Positions 4,759 to 44,240 of a stretch of DNA of 48,084 nt are shown here, in pieces (the stretch's first letter is position 1; each line of letters starts with the position of its first letter). Below the pieces are notes generated by a model. The model was not told the DNA's origin, did no database searches, and was given only the letters and a program-made list of their open reading frames with translations. Both the position numbers and the translations under genes were made by a program. The DNA is from an uncultured Spartobacteria bacterium. GTDB taxonomy: Bacteria; Verrucomicrobiota; Verrucomicrobiia; Chthoniobacterales; Chthoniobacteraceae. Where the stretch lies: NCBI GenBank assembly GCA_903901425.1, contig CAIURC010000011.1:1-48084 (forward strand), in the 5' to 3' direction.

Positions 4759-5916
4759 ATGAAACCACTGCTTCCATTGCTCGCCCTTGCTGTCTCTGCT
4801 TCCGCTGCTGCCCCAACCGGAATTCTCGCTAACCAAGGTAAACGCAAGCCGGTCGTTACGGTTGCAAACTCCTACTCGGAGAAAGTGGTCCGCACCTTTG
4901 CTGGCGATGCCGACTCAGGGCCAGTGTACGAGGTGCAACCGGGGGCCGAGAAAGTTTCGGCGAAAGTGGTGGCATTGCTCGAAGATGATTACGATTTTGG
5001 GGCCATTAACGCGGACACCGAAGTGGCATTGAGGGTTGGAGACTTCAGTTTTTCGGGAACCCTTGGCGAGGCAGGAAGCCGGAAGTTGCAAGCGACTGGA
5101 AACGCAATTTTTACGTTCAACCACCAGACGCCACTTCTCGATGCGGACGGTGGTGCCAAGGTGGACGGAGAAGGGAAGGAACTGTTTTCAGTGGTGAAAG
5201 TGGGGACATTGACTTGGGCATGGAGCGCAACCAGCAAAACGGTAACGGTGACGCTTGCTGTAGTGATTCCGGGCGGGGGACTGATAGACGTGGCAGGTGT
5301 AACCGGGATTGCCACAGCTTATTTTGGGCGGCTTGGCCAGCAGATCCCCCACGGCGGAGAACGCCGCTTTGCGAACCAAAACGAGGCGGGCGTCTCCATG
5401 CGGTTTGGACCAAGCGAGGGAACCCGGGATGCTTTTGTGACAGGAGTTACGAGGACCCGTCTAGTCAAGGTGCCTGGAGCGGAGGCACCTTATCTGACGA
5501 CAAGTGTTGTACTAGCGGGCGGCGCAGATACGCGGGGGCCGCAACTGGCCGTGCGCTTGCCAAAAAAGTGGGTGGAAGGTCTTGCGATTCCGGTCTTTGC
5601 AACGCTTTCAGATCGTCTGCCGCCTTCTTGGGATTCAGTGAGTCTGGACGATCCTCAGGCACCTGATGTGGCAGCACATCTTGGTGCTGTGCCCACGCAG
5701 GGCAGCGGTGCGTTTTTTACCTTAGATTACCGGACGGTTTACGGTCACGGCTTGCCGCTTGGCACACCAAAGGTGAATTCAAAGGGCGTGGGTTATCTGG
5801 GGGCCAATCCAACATTAGAGCCGGGGATGTATACACTCAGTTTCGTGGCTGTAGACTCTCAAGGAAACAGCACCACAGTGGTAAAAAGCGTCACGGTGGG
5901 AACTACTGCTCCATAG
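4759..5916 (+). CDS. Secreted protein of unknown function
   Basis: A 385-residue protein beginning with a clear signal peptide (MKPLLPLLALAVSASAAA). The rest is rich in short Val/Thr/Gly strands, suggesting an all-beta extracellular or periplasmic protein. The last about 90 residues end in a segment (MYTLSFVAVDSQGNST) that looks like the closing strands of an immunoglobulin-like domain. I see no catalytic motif, lipobox or anchor and do not recognise the family. It stands alone between two non-coding stretches, and the inverted repeats starting at 5931 follow its stop. Confidence 0.7.
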   Translation: MKPLLPLLALAVSASAAAPTGILANQGKRKPVVTVANSYSEKVVRTFAGDADSGPVYEVQPGAEKVSAKVVALLEDDYDFGAINADTEVALRVGDFSFSGTLGEAGSRKLQATGNAIFTFNHQTPLLDADGGAKVDGEGKELFSVVKVGTLTWAWSATSKTVTVTLAVVIPGGGLIDVAGVTGIATAYFGRLGQQIPHGGERRFANQNEAGVSMRFGPSEGTRDAFVTGVTRTRLVKVPGAEAPYLTTSVVLAGGADTRGPQLAVRLPKKWVEGLAIPVFATLSDRLPPSWDSVSLDDPQAPDVAAHLGAVPTQGSGAFFTLDYRTVYGHGLPLGTPKVNSKGVGYLGANPTLEPGMYTLSFVAVDSQGNSTTVVKSVTVGTTAP

Positions 5917-6223
5917 GGAACGAACAACATCGGACGTAAGCGTCCGCAGCCAAGGCCCCAAAATGGGGTGAACCCATCGCAGTTGTGATCGGGCAACTGC
6001 GGGAAAAACCGCGCTGGATGCCGCTTACGGAATTACACTTCCACGAAGGAGCAGAGCTGCTTGCGATCTGTCAATCAGCTGGAACGCGGAGCGCGTTCGA
6101 CCTTGGCAGGATCTGGGTAAGCACCTGCCGCGTGTCTTCGCGCGTCTGTTCTATGGAAGCCAGATTTCAGGCCTAAAAATCCGGGGAAAACAGTCGGGGT
6201 CAAAGGATACAACCACTCGCTCC
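5917..6223. repeat. Intergenic spacer with a cluster of inverted repeats (REP-like)
   Basis: Three perfect palindromic units and one weaker one lie between the convergent ends of the flanking genes: CGGACG-TAAG-CGTCCG (5931-5946), CCCC-AAAAT-GGGG (about 5957-5969), CGCAGTTG-TGATCGGG-CAACTGCG (5978-6001) and GAACGCG-GAG-CGCGTTC (6082-6098). None is followed by a T tract, so simple terminators are unlikely. The arrangement resembles repetitive extragenic palindromes; whether copies exist elsewhere in the genome cannot be seen here. A small forward ORF (5985-6176) runs through the repeats and is not credible as a gene. Confidence 0.55.
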
Positions 6224-9200
6224 TCACACCCTGTGCGCAGGCGGCTTCAACGCCCGCAACGCGTCCAGCAGTTTTCCGGTTTCTTTTTCCGGGTCATGCC
6301 ACCAGTCGGTGGACCAGATGCGGTGCAAGTTCCATCCAAGCCCCCCCAGGATTGCGGCGCGCAGTTTGTCACGATCGCGTGCGGTTGCGGCCCGGTGGTA
6401 GGTCGGGCCGTCGCATTCGACGCCAAGTAGGTAACGGCCGGGCCTCGCCGGATCCACAACGGCAAGATCAATGCGGTACCCGGAGCAACCAACGTGGTGG
6501 TGCACCGCGTAACCCGCCGCACGAATGCGGTTGGCGACCATTCCTTCAAACTCTGACACGGCATCCCCTGCAGCGGAAGCCAGGCCGTTGGCGGGCAAAG
6601 CCCGCGGTCCGCGGTCCGCATAGTCCAGGAAATGTTTGAGGTCGCGGACCCCTTGGGCGCGGGTGCGAGTCAGGTCGATCTGATCGGCGCGCAGTCCGCT
6701 GAAAACCAACAACTCGTGCTTGGCCCGGGTGATGGCCACGTTGAGCCGGCGTTCGCCGCCCTCGCGGTTGAGTGGGCCGAAATTCATCGCGACCCTTCCC
6801 GACTCGTCCGGCCCGTAGCAAATGGAAAAGAAAATCACATCGCGTTCGTCACCCTGCACATTCTCGAGGTTCTTCACAAAGACCGGTTCGCCTTCAACCG
6901 GTGGAGTGTCGCCAAAGTGGGTCTCGATTTCGGGGTATTTGCGCCGTTCCTCATCCAGCAGGTTTTCGACGAGGTGCTGCTGTGCTTGGCTGAATGTCAC
7001 CACGCCGAAGGAGCGCCGTGGGCCGTCTGCTGTCCGAAGCCGGGCCACGAGTTCGGACACGAGCGCCTTGGCTTCATCGGGATTGGTGCGGGAGTTGCCC
7101 TTGTCGTATCGGGCCCCGGGCAGGTGGTGGAAACGGACGCCGCCGTGGCCGGTCTCTGGGGAGGGAAAGGTCAGCAGATCGTTCTGGTAGTACTGCCTGT
7201 TGCTGAACGTGATGAGGGCCTCATGGCGGCTGCGGTAGTGCCATTGGAGGCGTTTGTGTCGCACCTGATGGCTCATCAATTCATCTAGCACGCTCTCCAG
7301 ATCCTGCTGCGTCTCGGGTGTCTCGGAGTCGCCTTCTTCGTCACTGGAGTTCATAAAGAAACTGGTGGGGGGGAGCTGTTTTGGGTCGCCAACCACCACC
7401 AGTTGTTTCCCGCGCGCAATGGCCCCCACGGCGTCCCACACGGGGATCTGCGATGCCTCGTCAAAAATCACGAGGTCAAAGGACTCGTGCGAGGCTTCGA
7501 GATACTGGGCAACAGAGAGCGGGCTCATGAGCACACAGGGTTTGAGCCGGGGAAGAAGCTTTGGGATGCCCGCGAGAAGCTTCCGCACAGGGATGTGCCG
7601 CATGCGTTTTCCCAGTTCTCGCCGGAGCAGACCCAGTTCGGCCTTGAGCACGTCACCGATGCCATGGTCCCGGGGAATCCCGGCCGCAAGTCGCGCCCGG
7701 ATGAGTTCGCGGGAAAGTGCGGACACCGTTTCGTCCAGAGTGCGAAACCGCTCGATCCGTTCGTTGTGTTCATGGCCAAAAAAGTCGCGGAGGAGCGGTT
7801 CGTGTTCGAGCAGGGCATGCAGCAGTGCCCTGCGGAAACTCCGTTCGAACAGGGACGGAACATCGAGCGTGGCGCCGTCGGCGGATTCGAGGGCGGCCAC
7901 CAGCGGATCCAGACCGGCGTCGATGGCCTCCTGGCGGGTTCTCTGCCATGAGCACCACTCGCGGATGTTGCGCCATGCAACGGGAAGGTGGTCTGTGAGG
8001 GAGCGAACGGCGGCAAAATAATCCGGAGCAGCCTCAATCGCTGCCCGGCGAAGCTTCACCTCGGCAGCGAAGCAGTCCAGGGCGGAATCAAAGCCCTGCA
8101 TGGTCTCCCGGTAACCCACGAGGCGGGTCCCCGAGGGTGTTGTCGAGGACCAAGCGTCCGGACCTTCGGTGAAAAGTGCGGACAAGAACTGCCGGAGTTG
8201 GCCAAGCCAGACGAGATTGTCGCCGGCAAAGGCAAACATGCTGGAGTGCAACGACTCACCCCATGCCCGGACACGAGCCAAGGATTCTGGAGTGGGTTCA
8301 CCATTGGCCCAGATCAGGCCGAGGACTGTGGATGCGGCTGGAGCGGCTGCAACCAGTTCGGCGTGGATGGTGCGGAGCCGGGGCGTGGCTTGAACGAACC
8401 ACTCCAGTGCGGCGGCCACAGCAGCAAGGTGATCGGGAGCCGTGTCGAGTTCTTCGCGATGCAATGCGGCGGAAACCGCCACAGGCTCATACGCGGCAAA
8501 AAATGGGCCGATGGCCTCCGTGAAGAGCGCGAGGGGATGGTCGGCGGGTGTTCCCGGGGTGCGATGTCGGCAGCCTTTCGCAAAAAGGTCTGCGATCAAC
8601 TGCCGGAGTGTGGCCAGCCAATCCGTGTGCTCCCCCGTGAGCACATTCAGTTGCTGATGCAGAAGTGCGCCCCAGTGGCGGACCGCAGCGAGACCGCCCG
8701 GGTCGGGCTCTCCTTGATTCCAGATCTGGCTGCCGAGCATGGCCTCCGCTTCGCTGCGCAAACCGGTCAGTTGTTCGGTCACAACGCGCAAGCGTTCCGC
8801 GGCGGCAAGGACGGTTTCCTCGGTGCCGGCCTCCGGAGGGCTCTGCTGGGTCCGCGCCTTGCGCAGAAGCCGGCGGACATGGCCGGTCCGGATCCATTTT
8901 ATGAGGAACCAAGCGCTGCGGCCGGTGTCCCATTTTTGCCTGAGTGTTTTGAGATCCAGCGCGAGGAGTCGGGATTCCTCATAGCCGGCGAGTTTGGCGC
9001 GCAGCTCAGCACGTTCTTTGGTCAATGCAATCCAGAGGTCGAAGCGGTCCACCCATCCAAGCCATGGCGTGGTTGCAAACGCCGAAGGTAACGGGGGTGC
9101 GCAGGCGAGGCTGTCGGCAAGAGCGAGCATCTGGCCAATCTCGGTGCGCGTGGAGGTGGCGCGTGGGTGTTTGAGCCACAGGCGCATTGCGCGTTCTGTC

Positions 9201-12200
9201 TCGGAGGCTCTTTTTGTGAGTGCCAAGAGATCACGAGCGTGCGCGACGTTCGTGTCGGCATGGTCCTTGGGCCATGTCTCGGACGCGACCGGCGCGGATT
9301 CGGATCCCTGCGAGGCACGGGCTCGCCGAAGCCCGGCGCGCAGTCCGGTGCGTTCCGTGACGAGTGCGGTCCACCGATCCAGATCGGCTGCGAGACGGTT
9401 CCAGGGATTTGTGGCAAAGGCCGGCCCGACGGGCTCAGGAGCGAGCAAGCATTGCACCAGAATACTCAGGTGGTGGAGTTGGATCTTTGGAACAGGGCCC
9501 TCAGGGAGCCGCAGCCAGGTGCACAGTTCGCGTGTTGCGTCGTGGGCGGTCTGTGCCTTTGCAGCCAGATCGTGAATACGATCCTGTGCACGTTCCGCCC
9601 AGGCAGGGGACCAATCCTCGCAGGCAATGGGAGAGAGGGCATGGTCGTGCAAGGGCAAGACCGTGCGCGCCCAGTCCTGGAGCCGGCGGGCGAGAAGCCG
9701 AGTTTCCTCAAGTTTCGCCGGGGTAGTCTCGAGGATTTTTGGCCACTGCTGGAGGCGCAGGGTGTACAGGTCTTTCCTGGGGAGGAGGTAGTCAAAGCAT
9801 GCGTGAGCGCTCAGGCCGCAGGTCGAGGGGCGATGGAGGGCGCGGATGTATCCGTTGAGGGCTGCCCGGAGCCGTTCGAGTTCGGCGGTGCGTTGTGCCC
9901 AGTCTGGCGGGAGGGGGTGCTCTCCGAACTTCAGGCTGCGCTCAAACTGAGCCAGCACGTCGGCTTTCCCGATTTTATTGGAGTGGAGTTCAAGGCAGAA
10001 GGGCTCAAGTCCCTCCTCGCGGAGACGGCGATGGACCACGTCGAGTGCCGCGCGCTTTTCGGCGACAAACAGCACCCGTTTACCGTGTGCGAGGCAGTGC
10101 GCGATGATGTTGGTGATGGTCTGTGATTTTCCGGTGCCGGGCGGGCCCTCGAGGACGAAGTCGTGGCCGGCTGCTGCGGCCATGACTGCGGCGAGTTGGG
10201 AGGAGTCCGCGCTGCGCGGGCAGAAGATATGGCTGGGAGGGAACTGGTCATCCAGGTCCGGCGGCCTGACGTCGTGCGGCGGGTTCTCGTAAGGGGAGCC
10301 GGCGCCGTGGATGAGGTGATTGACGATCCGGTTGCGGGTGAGGTCATCCAGACGGTCGGCGAGATCTTTCCAGAGCAGGAACTTGGTGAACGAGAACTGG
10401 CCGAGCCAGACCTCCTCCTTGACCTCCCAGCCTTTGAGGTTGCGAACGGCATCCCGGAAGATCTGAAGCACACGGCCAACATCGACGCCGTTTTCGTCCT
10501 CGGGCAGGGGGTCGAGTCCGGCGATTTCTTTTTGGAACTGTTGCCGGAGCATTTCCATCAGGGTGAAGTTGAGGCGGGTTTCCTCGTCGATGCGGCGCAG
10601 GGAAAAGCCTTCGAGCACAGACTTCCGTTTGAGTTCGACGGGAACGAGAAGCAGGGGGGCGCGATGAACGCGTTCGGTGTACTCGGTTTCGCGCCATTCC
10701 AGCACGCCGACGGCTGCGAAGAGGGTGTTGGTTCCGTTTTCCTCCAGCGCATTGCGGGAAGCGCGGTACAGCTCCGTCAGACGCCGCGCATGTTCGGCGT
10801 CGTCGAGATGGGTGTGCAGGCGCCCGTTCCGCAACTCATCCGCGAGGTGCGTGGCCAAAGGATCGGTGTCCGACTGTCGGGAAAGGAGGATGTTGTCGCG
10901 CGGATCCTTGGTGCCCATCAGTTTTGGCTTTGGGCGCAGAGCGATTTCTCTTTCAGCCGCCAACTCGTCTTCCACCTGTTCCGGCTGGGCTGAGAGGATG
11001 CGGATGGTGGATTTGGTTTCCTTGAAATTGAGGAGTCGGTTGCGAAGGCTGAGGTCGAGGAGCCGGCTTTTCCACTGGTCTATGCGTGTGACAGGCCCGG
11101 GTTCTGGAGGCGCGGCCAGTTCGAGCGGATCCGAAAAGGTTCGAGTGCCGATGCCGCCTGCAAGGATGGGGGCGGCGGGTTCCCCGGCGGGCAGGGAGCC
11201 TGCTTGGCCCGGGATGGGGAGCGGCAGAATGCGGTTCCGACGGGCTTGATGCACGTCGAGAGCCAGGCAGAACTGTTTTTTGGTGTGGAGGTTGTCCTTG
11301 GCCGAGCGTTCAGCATCCGCGAGCAGCCCCGGCGATTCGGTGGCGACAAGGGTGGTTTCAAAGGCTGTGATAAGGGAGTCCGTTGCGTATTTGCGGACCT
11401 GACGGAGGGCGTCTTCCCCTTCGGCAGTCGAATCGGGAAAAGTGCGTTCCTCCAGCCAGCACCCCGCGTAAGAGTGTCCCTCGTGCATCAGCACGAGGGG
11501 GTGGAGGCCTGCGCGTTCACAGCAGGCGGCGAAGAGCAGGGTCAGGTCGAGGCAGGTACCAAAGCGGTCAGCGACAATCTGGGAGGGGAAATAGATTTTC
11601 TGGCCGGTGTTTTCGAAGCTGGGGGGCGGGTTGATGTAACGGATGCCCAGTTCGGCCACTGCCTTGTAGATGGCTGCGACCTGTTCCCATGCGCGCTTTC
11701 GGCTTTTGTCCTGATACCCGTTGAGCGCGCCGCGCCCGGTGGCCTCGCGGAGGATCTCTGAGGCGCGGCTGAGAATCGGCATGACCGCCGGATCGTTGGG
11801 CAGAATGAATGCGGCGAGGATTTCTGGGAGGGCCACGAGGCCGCACCATTCGTTCCGGGCGAGCACTGCGATGGATTCGGTCCGCGCAGAAATGACCGTG
11901 CCGCCTTCGATCACCTCGATCTTGAGCAGGCCGGCGACCTTTTCATTGAGCCCGGCCAGAAAGTCGTGGCTGAGCTTCAGATCGAGCGGTGACACGCGGA
12001 ACTCCCCGTGGGCATCCAGGGATTGGATGCGAAGCTCGACGGGAGCGGCAAATGCCGGCTCGGTCGAGATGCGAACCAGAAGGTCCTTTTGCGGAGCATC
12101 CCCATTCAGGACCCTGAGTTCTTTGATGACCGGAATCGCGTTCTGCTGGAAGGTATAGTTGATCGCCGGGTCGAAAGAGATCGTGAGGGAGGGTGAGACG

Positions 12201-12217
12201 TCTGGGCTGTGGTTCAT
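6224..12217 (-). CDS. DUF4011 superfamily 1 helicase with C-terminal nuclease (Hhe-like)
   Basis: A 1997-residue multidomain protein. An N-terminal beta-rich region (about 1-120) leads to a transglutaminase-like segment (about 200-260) with Cys222 in RFGTCLDLTLLFAACCERAGL and His248. A DUF4011-type segment follows (RIDQWKSRLLDLSLRNRLLNF, about 378-398). The SF1 helicase core begins with Walker A GPPGTGKSQT (691-700), is interrupted by a long alpha-helical insert of roughly 750 residues, and resumes with Walker B (VIFDEASQIP, about 1585), GDPKQLPPTSF, HYRSRHEALI and LNVAITRAKHELLVF. A PD-(D/E)xK nuclease-like domain closes the protein (YRIDLAV, GVECDGPTYHRAATARDRDK, near 1930), of the type found with Vsr/DUF559 folds. 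The order DUF4011-helicase-Vsr matches the Hhe anti-phage family as I know it; a defence role here is inference. It is a single gene with no methylase or partner alongside. Confidence 0.88.
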   Translation of the reverse strand: MNHSPDVSPSLTISFDPAINYTFQQNAIPVIKELRVLNGDAPQKDLLVRISTEPAFAAPVELRIQSLDAHGEFRVSPLDLKLSHDFLAGLNEKVAGLLKIEVIEGGTVISARTESIAVLARNEWCGLVALPEILAAFILPNDPAVMPILSRASEILREATGRGALNGYQDKSRKRAWEQVAAIYKAVAELGIRYINPPPSFENTGQKIYFPSQIVADRFGTCLDLTLLFAACCERAGLHPLVLMHEGHSYAGCWLEERTFPDSTAEGEDALRQVRKYATDSLITAFETTLVATESPGLLADAERSAKDNLHTKKQFCLALDVHQARRNRILPLPIPGQAGSLPAGEPAAPILAGGIGTRTFSDPLELAAPPEPGPVTRIDQWKSRLLDLSLRNRLLNFKETKSTIRILSAQPEQVEDELAAEREIALRPKPKLMGTKDPRDNILLSRQSDTDPLATHLADELRNGRLHTHLDDAEHARRLTELYRASRNALEENGTNTLFAAVGVLEWRETEYTERVHRAPLLLVPVELKRKSVLEGFSLRRIDEETRLNFTLMEMLRQQFQKEIAGLDPLPEDENGVDVGRVLQIFRDAVRNLKGWEVKEEVWLGQFSFTKFLLWKDLADRLDDLTRNRIVNHLIHGAGSPYENPPHDVRPPDLDDQFPPSHIFCPRSADSSQLAAVMAAAAGHDFVLEGPPGTGKSQTITNIIAHCLAHGKRVLFVAEKRAALDVVHRRLREEGLEPFCLELHSNKIGKADVLAQFERSLKFGEHPLPPDWAQRTAELERLRAALNGYIRALHRPSTCGLSAHACFDYLLPRKDLYTLRLQQWPKILETTPAKLEETRLLARRLQDWARTVLPLHDHALSPIACEDWSPAWAERAQDRIHDLAAKAQTAHDATRELCTWLRLPEGPVPKIQLHHLSILVQCLLAPEPVGPAFATNPWNRLAADLDRWTALVTERTGLRAGLRRARASQGSESAPVASETWPKDHADTNVAHARDLLALTKRASETERAMRLWLKHPRATSTRTEIGQMLALADSLACAPPLPSAFATTPWLGWVDRFDLWIALTKERAELRAKLAGYEESRLLALDLKTLRQKWDTGRSAWFLIKWIRTGHVRRLLRKARTQQSPPEAGTEETVLAAAERLRVVTEQLTGLRSEAEAMLGSQIWNQGEPDPGGLAAVRHWGALLHQQLNVLTGEHTDWLATLRQLIADLFAKGCRHRTPGTPADHPLALFTEAIGPFFAAYEPVAVSAALHREELDTAPDHLAAVAAALEWFVQATPRLRTIHAELVAAAPAASTVLGLIWANGEPTPESLARVRAWGESLHSSMFAFAGDNLVWLGQLRQFLSALFTEGPDAWSSTTPSGTRLVGYRETMQGFDSALDCFAAEVKLRRAAIEAAPDYFAAVRSLTDHLPVAWRNIREWCSWQRTRQEAIDAGLDPLVAALESADGATLDVPSLFERSFRRALLHALLEHEPLLRDFFGHEHNERIERFRTLDETVSALSRELIRARLAAGIPRDHGIGDVLKAELGLLRRELGKRMRHIPVRKLLAGIPKLLPRLKPCVLMSPLSVAQYLEASHESFDLVIFDEASQIPVWDAVGAIARGKQLVVVGDPKQLPPTSFFMNSSDEEGDSETPETQQDLESVLDELMSHQVRHKRLQWHYRSRHEALITFSNRQYYQNDLLTFPSPETGHGGVRFHHLPGARYDKGNSRTNPDEAKALVSELVARLRTADGPRRSFGVVTFSQAQQHLVENLLDEERRKYPEIETHFGDTPPVEGEPVFVKNLENVQGDERDVIFFSICYGPDESGRVAMNFGPLNREGGERRLNVAITRAKHELLVFSGLRADQIDLTRTRAQGVRDLKHFLDYADRGPRALPANGLASAAGDAVSEFEGMVANRIRAAGYAVHHHVGCSGYRIDLAVVDPARPGRYLLGVECDGPTYHRAATARDRDKLRAAILGGLGWNLHRIWSTDWWHDPEKETGKLLDALRALKPPAHRV

Positions 12218-12505: not shown

Positions 12506-13639
12506 TCAGAGCGCTGCTCGCAGGATGGTCTCGAGTTCTGGTTTGCTGAAACTCACCGGATTGCCCTGCATGCTGCTGGCCTGTGCGGCTTTTTCGCAAA
12601 TTGCGGGCAGCCCGGATTCCGCAAGGCCGTATGCGGCAAGTCCGGGAATGGAAAGCGTCTTTGTGAGGGACCGGACCCAGATCACGCCCTCCTCGGGTCT
12701 GGCGTCGGCGTTTCCAGTCAGGATCCGAGCGACTTCCGCGTATCTGTCTTTGGTCTGCGAAGGCGCTGCTGCGAGATTGGCTTCCATCACAGGCGCGAGC
12801 AGGGCCGCACACACCGCGCCGTGCGGAGCGTTGAGGCAGCCGCCAATCGGTGCGGCGAAGCCGTGCACGGCACCGAGTCCGGAGTTGGCCAATGCCATGC
12901 CGCCAAAAAGAGCGCCGAGTGCGAGGTCCTCGCGGGCGACGAGGTCCTCGCCGTTGTTGAATGCGCGGAGAAGGGAGCGGGAGATCCGTGTCAGCCCGTC
13001 CCGGCAGAGGGCGTCGGTGAGGGGGTTGGCGCGCCTTGAGACAAACGGCTCGAGCACCTGGGAAAGCGCGTCCAATCCGGTGGCAGCCGTCACGGCCGGT
13101 GGCAGGGACCGGGTGAGTTCGGGATCTATCAGGGCCACGGAGGGCAGCATCCGCGGACTGCGCAGGCTGACCTTGACCCCGTGTTCCGGGGAGCGGAGAA
13201 CGGCGTTCCGGGTCACCTCCGCTCCGGCACCTGCAGTGGTGGGTACGGCGATCCAGGGCAGGGACGGCTTTTCCACGGGCCGCCCGTCCCCGATCACCTC
13301 GGCGTAGTCGAGTGGATCGCCGCCATTCCCAAGCAGCATGCCGATGGCTTTGGCCGTGTCGATCACACTTCCTCCCCCCACCGCGATCACGTGGTCGCAG
13401 TCCTGGCCTGCCGCAACGCCCCGCCGGACCAGATCGAAGTCGGGTTCTCCGGAAACCTCTAGAGTGGCTGCGGCAGATTTTCCGAGTGACTGCGCGAATG
13501 CGTCATCCCGGGAGGCGAAGGAGCGGTGAGTGACCAGCAGGAGGCGACGGCCCATGGGGCGCGCCAAGGCCTCGAGTTGGGAGGCGGTGCCGGACCCAAA
13601 GATCACCCGATGGGCGGTGGCAAACTCGAAGGTCACCAT
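12506..13639 (-). CDS. Iron-containing alcohol dehydrogenase family protein
   Basis: NAD(P)-dependent group III (Fe-type) dehydrogenase fold, 377 residues, full length. The nucleotide-binding glycine motif ([15 protein letters not shown]) and the [10 protein letters not shown] segment are intact. In the metal site the first ligand Asp is present in [10 protein letters not shown], but the His expected four residues later (DAxxH) is Gln. The two later His residues are kept ([12 protein letters not shown] and NAPHGAV). Some subfamilies carry altered ligands, so the substrate and even the metal are uncertain. The gene starts inside the preceding ABM gene (7-base overlap), so the two form an operon. 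Confidence 0.87.
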
Positions 13640-39401: not shown

Positions 39402-41582
39402 CTATCCCGGAAGAGGAAACCTGCTGGTCAGTTTGAGAACCTCGCTGCGAACCGTGGCAAGTTCGGAGGGTTGATCGTGGTGCGTGAGCGCCTTGTGAAT
39501 GAGATCCGCGATCTCCATCATCTCCTCCTCCTTCATCCCACGCGAAGTAACCGCAGGTGTCCCGATCCGGATCCCACCGCCGAGCGTGATTTTCTCCGTG
39601 TCAAACGGGATGCCATTCTTGTTCACAGTGATCCCGGCGTGGTCCAAGGACTCCTGAGCGAGTTTGCCGTTCAGTCCGCGCGGCCGGAGATCCACCAGCA
39701 TGAGATGGTTGTCCGTGCCCCCAGAGACCAGACGGTACCCGTTCTGCTGCATCCGAGCCGCCAGCGCCTTGGCGTTGCTGACGATTTGCGCAGTGTAGGT
39801 CTTGAATCCGGGCTGCAGAGCCTCTCGGAAGCAGACGGCCTTGGCTGCAATCACGTGCTCAAGCGGCCCGCCTTGGATTCCCGGGAAAACTTGGGAATCA
39901 ATCCCCTTGGCGTACTGAGCTTTGCAGATGATCAGGCCACCGCGCGGTCCCCGGAGGCTTTTGTGGGTGGTGGTCGTCACAAAATCCGCCAGTTCAACGG
40001 GACTCGGGTGCTGGCCCCCCGCAACCAGGCCCGCAATGTGCGCCATGTCCACAAAGAGATAGGCCCCCACAGAATCTGCAATCTCCCGCATTTTTTTGAA
40101 GTCAATCAGGCGCGGATAAGCCGAGGCTCCCGCCGTGATCATCCGGGGCCGGAATTCCGAGGCGTGCTTGGCAAGCGCTTCGTAATCGATCCGTTCGTCC
40201 GTTTGGCTGACCCCGTAGTGGGAGATTTGAAAGAATCGCCCAGAAAAATTCGCACGGTTGCCGTGAGTGAGGTGTCCCCCGTGCGCAAGGTCCATGGTCA
40301 GGATCTTGTCCCCAGGCTGAAGGACGCTGAAGTACACCGCCATGTTGGCCTGACTGCCACTGTGCGGCTGGACATTGACGTGATCACCTCCGAAAAGCTG
40401 CCGGGCACGGTCGATGGCCAGTTGTTCAGTGCGGTCCACATTCTCGCAGCCCCCGTACCAGCGGCGCTGCGGGTAGCCCTCCGCGTACTTGTTGGTCAGA
40501 CAGGATCCCTGCGCCTCCATAACGGCGCGGCTGGTGAAGTTTTCCGATGCAATCAGCTCGATGTTCTCAAACTGGCGCCGGGCCTCCTCCCGGACTGCCG
40601 AGTAAACCTCCGGGTCCGCTTCCGCCAAAGACTCCGTGCGGGAAGGAGCCAGTTGTTCCAGCATCTCCACCCGGTGCCCGTGCCGGCCACCCTCAAACGC
40701 TGTGTTCAAGAACGCGTCCACGATGCTTCCTGCCTGTGCCGGCAAAACATGGTTCGCCGGAAGGCAGAGCACGTTTGCGTCATTATGCTGGCGGGTCACC
40801 GTCGCATCCTCGGAGCTCGACACCAGGGAGGCCCGGATCTTCGGGTGCCGGTTGGCGGCAATGCTCATTCCGATTCCGCTCCTGCATACGAGGATCCCAA
40901 AGTCGGCCCCGCCGGACCCCACCTCCCGGCTCACCGCAGCGGCGTAATCGGGGTAGTCCACCGATTTCTCAGCCGAGTGGGCCCCGAGATCCGAGACCAT
41001 GTGCCCCTTCCGCGACAGATGCTCGCGGATGGCCTGTTTGAGTTCAAAGCCGCCGTGGTCGCAGCCAATGGCGATGCGCAGGGGCCGGTTTGCAGTGGAG
41101 AGGACGGGCTGGGTTTGGGTGGTGGGCATGGAGTGATTCAGCAGGTTCAGGATTCCAGGCAGCGCCTTGCGGAGGGTGTCGCGGCAGCGCAGATACGCTT
41201 CCAGCCCCAGCCCGACGGGATCGGGCACCTCGGGGTTGGCACGCAGTTCAGGGGTGAACTCGCAGAGCAGGCGCGCCTTGGAGGCCGCCTCGGGATAAAG
41301 CGTGGTGATCGCGTCCAGATGGCCGCGCGTCATTGCAAACAGGTGGGTCGCCTCCGCAGCCAGCTTCGCCGTCAGGGGCTGGCTCCTGTGCCTCGAAATG
41401 TCGATCCCCAGCCGCCGGAGGGCCTCCACGGAGTGGGGACTCGGCCCCTGGCCTCTGGCTGCGCTCACCCCGGCGGATCCGACCCACACGCCGGCTTCCT
41501 TCCCCAGGGCGTGCCGGAGCAGTCCTTCAGCCATCGGGCTGCGGCAGGTGTTTCCGGTGCAGACAAAGACAATTTTTTTCAC
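39402..41582 (-). CDS. glyA: Fusion: arginine phosphatase-like, ribose-5-phosphate isomerase B, serine hydroxymethyltransferase
   Basis: One uninterrupted frame of 726 residues (GTG start at 41582) joins three complete enzymes. Residues 1-150 are a low-molecular-weight phosphatase: P-loop CTGNTCRS (Cys8, Arg14) and general acid Asp121 in PDP. Thr12 in the P-loop marks arginine phosphatases of the YwlE type rather than tyrosine phosphatases. Residues about 168-305 are RpiB ([17 protein letters not shown], catalytic Cys233 in [18 protein letters not shown]). Residues about 312-726 are GlyA ([20 protein letters not shown]-lysine Lys541 in [33 protein letters not shown]). A Met at 152 could start a separate RpiB-GlyA product, but I see no ribosome-binding site before it. 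The domain order follows B. subtilis ywlE, ywlF, (ywlG), glyA. Confidence 0.93.
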
Positions 41583-42438: not shown

Positions 42439-43374
42439 TCAGGCGCGGGGGTGGAACTTGCGGTGGACCGACTTCAGGCGCTGCTGGTCGACATGGGTGT
42501 AGATCTGGGTGGTCGCAATGTCCGCGTGCCCCAGCATCTCCTGAATGATACGCAGGTCCGCGCCGTTGGACAGCAGGTGCGTGGCGAAAGAGTGCCGCAA
42601 AAGGTGCGGATACACATTGGCCCGGAGCCCGGCGTCGCGGGCGCAGCCTTTCACAATCTGCCAGATCCGCACGGTGGTGAGGCGCGTGCCGGAGGCGGAT
42701 AGAAACAATTCGCTGCTGGTTTTCCGGGAGACTCTGGCCGGCCGTTCGCGTCCAAGGTAGGCGCGGAGAGCCTCCACTGCCTTGGATCCCACCGGAACCA
42801 GGCGCGTTTTGTCGCCCTTTCCCGTCACACGGAGGATCTGGTGTTCAAGGTCGAGGTGCTCCAGGCGCGCGCCAGCCAGTTCGGAGACCCGGAGGCCGCT
42901 GGAGTAGAGGAGTTCCAGAATGGCGCGGTCCCGGAGTGCATTCGGGCGCTTCCCGGGAATGGCTTCCAAAAGGGTCTGCACCTCCAGTTCGTTCAGGGTT
43001 TCCGGGAGGAACCGCTCAATGCGGGGCAGGGAGAGCAGTTCGCCGAGGTCCGCGCCAAGGTGACCCCGCTGGTGGAGCCAGCGACAGAAAATTTTGAATG
43101 CGACAATCAGAAGTTTGATTGATGCGGCCGAAAGCCCCGAGTTTTTCCGGAATGCGAGGTATTCCGAGATCAGGGGAATGGAAATCTCGGTGCACGGCAC
43201 AGGGTCAGGAGGTGCCTCGGCCTTCGGGGGCGTTGTCCTGCGTTCCAACCATCCGGCAAACCCTTCCAAGGAAATCCGGGTGGAGAGTTGGTAGTTGTCG
43301 GAGAGTCCGCGCTCTGTGGCGAGAAAGAGAAGGAATCCCTCAATCGCCTCACGAAGCTGGAGTTGCAGGCTCAC
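42439..43374 (-). CDS. Tyrosine recombinase of the XerC/XerD family
   Basis: Site-specific recombinase, likely acting at a dif-type site to resolve chromosome dimers. The N-terminal SAM-like domain ([26 protein letters not shown]) and catalytic domain are complete: Arg in [12 protein letters not shown], Lys in [28 protein letters not shown] with His and Arg, [15 protein letters not shown] with the last His and the nucleophile Tyr. I start at GTG 43374 ([13 protein letters not shown]): it overlaps the purC stop as GTGA, and the 68 residues before it in the longer frame are Pro/Gly-rich antisense of purC. Length about 311 aa, normal. XerC versus XerD is not settled by sequence alone. Confidence 0.9.
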
Positions 43375-44240
43375 GCGCCGAGCCTGGAAACCGCTTCGAG
43401 GTATTTCAGGGAGGTGTTGTGGATCACGCTGTCCGGCAGCCGGGGGGCCGGAGGCGTCTTGTCCCAATCCAGGGTCTCCAGATAGTCCCGCACAAACTGC
43501 TTGTCGAAACTGGGCGGGCTGATCCCGATTTGGTGCAGGTCTGCCGGCCAGAACCGGGAAGAGTCCGGGGTCAGGCACTCGTCGATCAGGATGACGCGGC
43601 CATCCAAAATTCCGAACTCAAACTTCGTATCCGCAACCAGGATCCCCCGGGTTTCGGCAAATGCGCGTCCGGCCTCGTAAATCCTGAGGCTGAGGGCGCG
43701 GACTTCCTCGGCGACGGACGTCCCGACCAGATTCCGGCATTCCTCCCAGGAGATGTTCATGTCATGTCCGGACACGGCCTTGGTGGAGGGAGTAAAAATG
43801 GGTTCAGGAAGTTTCTCCGCCTGCCGAAGTCCGTCCGGCAACCGGATTCCGCAGATGGATCTGGACTGCTGGTACTCTTTCCAGCCCGATCCGGCCAGAT
43901 AGCCCCGGACCACGCATTCCACCGGAAGGGGGGTGGCCTTGCGGACCACCATGGACCGCCCGCAAAGTTGTTCTTTGAAAGGGGCGAGGGTCTCCGGAAA
44001 CCGGGCCGGGTCCATGGTCACCATGTGGTTCTCGACAAAGTCAAACTTCCGGAACCAGAAGCTGGAGAGCCGCGTTAGAACGCCGCCCTTCCCGGGGATG
44101 GGGTCCGGCAGAATGCAGTCAAACGCCGAGATCCGGTCTGTGGCCACGAGCAGCAGGTGTTCCCCGAGGTCGAAGATCTCCCGGACCTTGCCGCTGGCAA
44201 GTTTCGGGATACCGGGCAGATCAAGGTTCAAAAGGTCCAT
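43371..44240 (-). CDS. purC: Phosphoribosylaminoimidazole-succinocarboxamide synthase
   Basis: Purine biosynthesis enzyme that joins aspartate to CAIR (SAICAR synthetase). Features: [43 protein letters not shown] at the N-terminus, [58 protein letters not shown] and [15 protein letters not shown]. The 289 aa length agrees with the longer (yeast-like) bacterial form. It sits in a leftward run with purD upstream, separated from it by the S41-like gene, and overlaps the recombinase start. Confidence 0.95.

Follow-up and report, generated by a model that had tools for sequence, protein, structure and literature searches.

Single-protein and multi-protein systems that join a nuclease to a helicase or to a protease are known among bacterial anti-phage defences. 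Hna is a helicase-nuclease that at physiological ATP forms an auto-inhibited dimer, from which a single-strand binding protein of the phage releases it (PMC13381803), and the nucleases of Hachiman, AVAST and Canu are activated by partner proteases (PMC12799240). Closer in sequence to the gene described here are two NCBIfam equivalogs, Hhe (NF042953) and "anti-phage protein ProA" (NF058533), and the PADLOC models for Hhe (PDLC02194) and PDC-S37, the latter being a candidate single-gene defence label only, with a model of 1550 positions. Searches of the open literature on ProA in an anti-phage context, on PDC-S37 and on transglutaminases in phage defence turned up neither a paper about this family nor an experiment on ProA function. 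The source paper of the name was not found there either, so the anti-phage label of ProA rests on NCBIfam and is taken here on trust. A DUF4011 gene (subtype unspecified) was reported in every Pseudomonas aeruginosa isolate examined, a core-like distribution that counts against defence (PMC10250203).

The window studied here is a whole contig of 48,084 bases from a 5.1 Mb draft genome. It contains one complete ProA-family gene (P0001) that differs from the best known analogues in several respects. Like Hna, it encodes a helicase motor and a PD-(D/E)xK-type nuclease in one protein, but Hna is a DinG-like SF2 protein of 845 aa for which no DUF4011 or transglutaminase-like part is described. As in Hachiman, AVAST and Canu, a protease and a nuclease may be combined in one system, the difference being that those systems use trypsin-like or caspase partner proteins, whereas the cysteine-hydrolase-like domain predicted here is fused to the nuclease.

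Identification of a ProA-Family Gene

The gene was found at 6224–12217 on the minus strand as an unbroken ORF (ATG at 12217, stop at 6224) encoding 1997 aa; an earlier note on this DNA had placed it correctly but without the strand. All domain coordinates below refer to the minus strand as well. The protein scored 1972.1 bits against NF058533 (cut-off 1500), with matching stretches starting from model position 1, and 850.9 bits against the Hhe equivalog (cut-off 2000). Among PADLOC models the best match was PDC-S37 (1225 bits), compared to 605 bits for Hhe. The same picture was given by L048, an ortholog of 41% identity from within the order, with 1972 bits for ProA, which passes the cut-off, and 807 bits for Hhe. 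As judged by these profiles, the protein is a full-length member of ProA, a sister family of Hhe, and not a member of Hhe itself as the earlier note had proposed.

The order of DUF4011 (residues 385–557), AAA_11 (from residue 671), AAA_12 (1641–1839) and nuclease (1890–1987) was found by Pfam as had been read from the sequence. DUF4011, a split SF1 helicase and a C-terminal nuclease are shared with Hhe; in the ortholog L003, however, the best stretch of the Hhe model starts at residue 463, beyond the N-terminal domains. With other ProA proteins, the window protein shares the full-length match above cut-off and the domain order including the N-terminal region, but it lacks the C-terminal DUF3320-type extension of most relatives and its helicase insert has been made longer by two tandem duplications. 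Since NCBI already names the ProA family anti-phage, the gene is no new defence candidate; the observation made in the earlier note was confirmed and its interpretation partly supported, as a stand-alone defence helicase-nuclease but not as a novel one.

Helicase Motor, Insert and Nuclease

Conservation was assessed in 69 full-length homologues from about eleven phyla. DUF4011 was located at 10547–11065 (Pfam E 2e-45). Within the first motor half, the Walker A motif GPPGTGKS (residues 691–698; 10124–10147) had G691, K697 and S698 each conserved in 69/69 sequences, and the conserved helicase motif II FDEAS was found at residues 1585–1589 (7451–7465), followed by the second RecA-like domain, AAA_12 (6701–7297). 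In Foldseek searches the motor was closest to Setx, Dna2, IGHMBP2 and Upf1 (E 1e-8 to 3e-10). The AAA_11 and AAA_12 matches above cut-off, the motifs present in 69/69 sequences and the fold place it among the Upf1/Dna2-like SF1 helicases, and the split helicase recognized earlier was borne out.

The two motor halves are separated by an all-helical insert (approximately residues 770–1550; 7568–9910), which in the AlphaFold (AF2) model of residues 650–1849 (pLDDT 82, pTM 0.58) consists of helices only. An insert of roughly 750 residues, a possible sensor module, had been noticed before; its presence was confirmed, with the correction that it has been lengthened here by two tandem duplications, the distance between Walker A and motif II being 895 aa compared to a family median of 641. 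One duplication comprises residues 891–963 and 1004–1076 (8990–9547; period 113; score 104 versus a shuffled maximum of 54) and the other residues 1142–1267 and 1280–1404 (8006–8794; period about 137; score 193 versus a shuffled maximum of 57). Both were detected by direct local alignment with shuffles and were missed by BLAST self-comparison.

The nuclease domain (residues 1890–1987; 6257–6550) matched the PD-(D/E)xK-type family MTES_1575 REase (PF18741) over all 96 model positions with 121 bits (gathering threshold 38.2; E 2e-35). It contains the motif GVECDG at residue 1932, and the conservation of the nuclease residues was 69/69 for D1917, 66/69 for D1936 and 55/69 for E1934. The earlier note had read this nuclease as PD-(D/E)xK and likened the domain order to DUF4011-helicase-Vsr. 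Among Vsr/DUF559-type models only DUF559 gave a match, below its cut-off (13.2 bits versus a gathering threshold of 20.6; E 0.08), and the PD-(D/E)xK assignment was kept while the Vsr label was rejected in favor of MTES_1575. The C-terminal tail is 80 aa, compared to a median of 297 in relatives. Most relatives carry about 200 extra C-terminal residues, in which DUF3320 was detected for two out of three relatives scanned; the extension is also missing from some other members (e.g., L059).

N-Terminal Ig-Like and Transglutaminase-Like Domains

The AF2 model of the N-terminal region (mean pLDDT 92, pTM 0.88) showed two domains. Residues 5–121 (11855–12205; pLDDT about 97) form an Ig-like beta-sandwich, for which the structure matches were generic beta-sandwiches (Z 9–10), Spo0M and the C-terminal domains of factor XIII among them. 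Residues 125–331 (11225–11845) were predicted to have a transglutaminase/PNGase-like cysteine-hydrolase fold, with matches to yeast PNGase (3esw; Z 9.2, 155 residues, 3.7 Å) and to 3kd4, a putative protease (Z 9.0 over 134 residues). The predicted nucleophile Cys222 (codon 11552–11554) lies at the N-terminus of helix 222–235 and the predicted catalytic His248 (11474–11476) at the start of strand 248–254, and both were invariant (69/69 and 64/64). Glu287 (11357–11359), within the motif FETT next to strand 283–286, was found in 65/69 sequences and may be the third catalytic residue; Asp224 was present in 67/69. In the model, Cys222, His248 and Glu287 are placed as transglutaminase-fold enzymes have them, and the fold, the Cys at a helix start, the His at a strand start and the acidic residue after the next strand assign the predicted domain to the transglutaminase-like cysteine-hydrolase superfamily.

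None of the Pfam transglutaminase models matched the protein, and a profile of the N-terminal alignment gave no sequence match when searched against solved structures. The assignment is thus a fold-level one, made by structure comparison. The transglutaminase-like segment with Cys222 and His248 reported in the earlier note was nevertheless numbered correctly, and the predicted fold and total conservation speak for it; the modeled positions of the two residues, one opening a helix and the other a strand, are those expected for the superfamily. In the open literature we found no mention of a transglutaminase-like domain in an anti-phage helicase-nuclease setting.

Two weakly related proteins from the same bacterial family (P0002 and P0003) have hydrophobic N-terminal segments and retain the Cys and His, with IDTT or IECT where ProA has FETT. 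Separate proteins of relatives at L057 (5744–7156) and L056 (5573–7516) likewise have hydrophobic segments at the N-terminus and share this transglutaminase-like region with its Cys and His; they belong to no Pfam family. One ProA relative of 2669 aa (L112, 5749–13758) has a long extra N-terminal extension. Some ProA proteins above the cut-off lack the N-terminal domains, such matches within the phylum starting at 340–351, so that the cysteine-hydrolase part is not required in all members; this argues that the motor and the nuclease can be enough in part of the family.

Genomic Context of the Window Gene

As described before, the gene is flanked by ordinary genes, including those for a histidine kinase/response regulator, an Fe-dependent alcohol dehydrogenase (Fe-ADH), an IscS-type desulfurase and Nramp, and no local defence island was seen. 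Searches of the nearby genes with PADLOC models showed no defence neighbor, the only matches being the IscS-type desulfurase (DndA/SspA models), whose gene is also kept in congeners, and an MntR-like regulator. The inverted-repeat spacer reported in the earlier note was weak, amounting to a single hairpin of 12 nt and 83% complementarity at 6077–6103, and this short imperfect structure was rejected as a meaningful element. GC content (0.626) and GC3 (0.72) of the gene were the same as those of its neighbors, so that composition shows no sign of recent transfer and a recent foreign origin on these grounds was rejected.

No close ProA orthologue was found in three congeners. They all keep the IscS gene to the right of ProA, two also keep GtrA and Nramp, and all are without ProA and Fe-ADH. 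A housekeeping position was therefore rejected, as synteny of the right flank is retained where ProA is absent. The Fe-ADH gene (12506–13639, minus) adjoins ProA, and its best homologue in the three congeners is 37% identical; as a close homologue is absent from them, it may have come with or near ProA.

Some other genes in the window were recorded. The 385-aa protein encoded at 4759–5916 (plus) belongs to no Pfam family. The genome has five matches to it and congener G002 has 11, which makes it a lineage-specific expanded family. A 726-aa ORF at 39402–41582 (minus) is a fusion of a low-molecular-weight phosphatase, an RpiB-type isomerase and a serine hydroxymethyltransferase, and a gene of the phage-integrase family (tyrosine recombinase), possibly XerC/XerD-like, is present at 42439–43578 (minus).

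Distribution, Mobility and Defence Neighbors of Relatives

Within the phylum, 28 of 288 genomes (10%) had a protein above the ProA cut-off. Internal stop codons in some of the copies (G238, G267, G209 and G159) would fit a gene that is costly and frequently lost, or they reflect errors of assembly. Among 57 relatives, only a few genomes had a clear match of full or nearly full length. Broad conservation at one syntenic position, which the earlier note had named as evidence against defence, is thus the opposite of what was seen. A scan of the genomes of 84,980 species gave at least 582 relatives, the best 80 of which were from Pseudomonadota, Bacillota, Bacteroidota, Planctomycetota, Lentisphaerota, Nitrospirota and one methanogen. 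Phyla were mixed in the gene tree (15 changes compared to a minimum of 10), in which the window copy adjoins Lentisphaerota. Relatives, not all of them necessarily ProA proper, were present in 325 plasmid records, 202 of these conjugative. On a Klebsiella plasmid a ProA relative was located alone between insertion sequences, and on a P. aeruginosa plasmid one adjoins genes of an integrating conjugative element. The ProA family is patchy and mobile, and this pattern shows that a stand-alone gene is normal for it.

Genes next to relatives were defence genes far more often than those of matched controls. The 113 genes flanking 19 relatives matched 145 PADLOC models (E ≤ 1e-25) compared to 24 for 114 control genes from elsewhere on the same contigs, figures that count models, which overlap, and neither independent systems nor genes. 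An overlapping first sample of 109 flanking genes matched 126 models. The neighbors included Zorya A/B, type I-G CRISPR, HerA-SIR2 and a retron RT; the control matches were mostly to DpdE/ZorD helicase models, each with a single member, while mad3 had four.

Function and Alternative Explanations

Comparison of sequence and fold shows that the protein belongs to ProA, that its SF1 motor and its MTES_1575 nuclease are intact, and that the predicted transglutaminase/PNGase-like domain carries a Cys-His(-Glu) site that is invariant. That it functions as a single-gene anti-phage helicase-nuclease is considered probable (roughly 75%), and this is supported by the equivalog cut-off passed, the intact conserved motifs, the patchiness and mobility of the family, the defence neighbors of relatives and the existence of analogues. 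It is very improbable that the gene is an Hhe system: the domain order is shared and the Hhe models do align, with 605 and 850.9 bits, but the NCBIfam score falls far under its cut-off and ProA fits. A chromosomal genome-maintenance helicase-nuclease acting in DNA repair or end processing, Dna2-like and not specialized for defence, would agree with Dna2, Setx and Upf1 as nearest solved motors, with the ordinary gene context and neighbor-like GC and GC3 of the window copy and with the core DUF4011 gene of P. aeruginosa (PMC10250203). However, the gene is missing from the three congeners and from about 90% of the phylum genomes at the ProA cut-off, relatives are carried on conjugative plasmids and have defence-gene neighbors elsewhere, and the equivalog NF058533 bears an anti-phage name, which makes a maintenance role unlikely.

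For the N-terminal domain, the fact that Cys222 and His248 are fully conserved in about eleven phyla implies a selected chemical function. Together with the PNGase/protease-like fold, this would agree with the domain being the effector, which would attack a phage or host protein as a protease, deamidase or amidase, with the helicase-nuclease as sensor or second effector; we regard this as rather doubtful, as relatives above the cut-off that lack the domain keep helicase and nuclease, and the nuclease residues are conserved too. A catalytically silent scaffold or ligand-binding sensor, closer to what the earlier note suggested, would fit the missing matches to Pfam transglutaminase models and to the sequences of solved structures, but it seems improbable since decay would not predict an invariant Cys and His and a nearly invariant Glu.

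For the preferred anti-phage helicase-nuclease, the intact motor and nuclease, the single gene and the mobility fit a surveillance helicase whose response to infection is to degrade DNA. The motor, which probably moves 5′ to 3′ as the closest relatives of solved structure do, would engage phage DNA ends or single-stranded intermediates; DUF4011 and the helical insert would couple this step to the freeing of the C-terminal nuclease. The freed nuclease would degrade DNA, and if it also cut that of the host, infection would be abortive. Hna and the nucleases with partner proteases provide analogues for DNA degradation and nuclease gating of this kind. More tentatively, the N-terminal cysteine-hydrolase domain might act on or sense a protein (self, phage or host) and so gate the nuclease, a role that taken alone is possible but not favored.

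The gene itself is no discovery, as the ProA family already carries an anti-phage name. The point of interest is the N-terminal Cys-His site, which does not vary between sequences as distant as those of Proteobacteria, Firmicutes, Planctomycetes and one methanogen. It is conceivable, although we would not bet on it, that the effector of this giant single-protein anti-phage helicase-nuclease is controlled by, or consists in, a catalytically live, fused cysteine hydrolase of transglutaminase/PNGase fold; if true, protein chemistry would gate DNA degradation inside one polypeptide.
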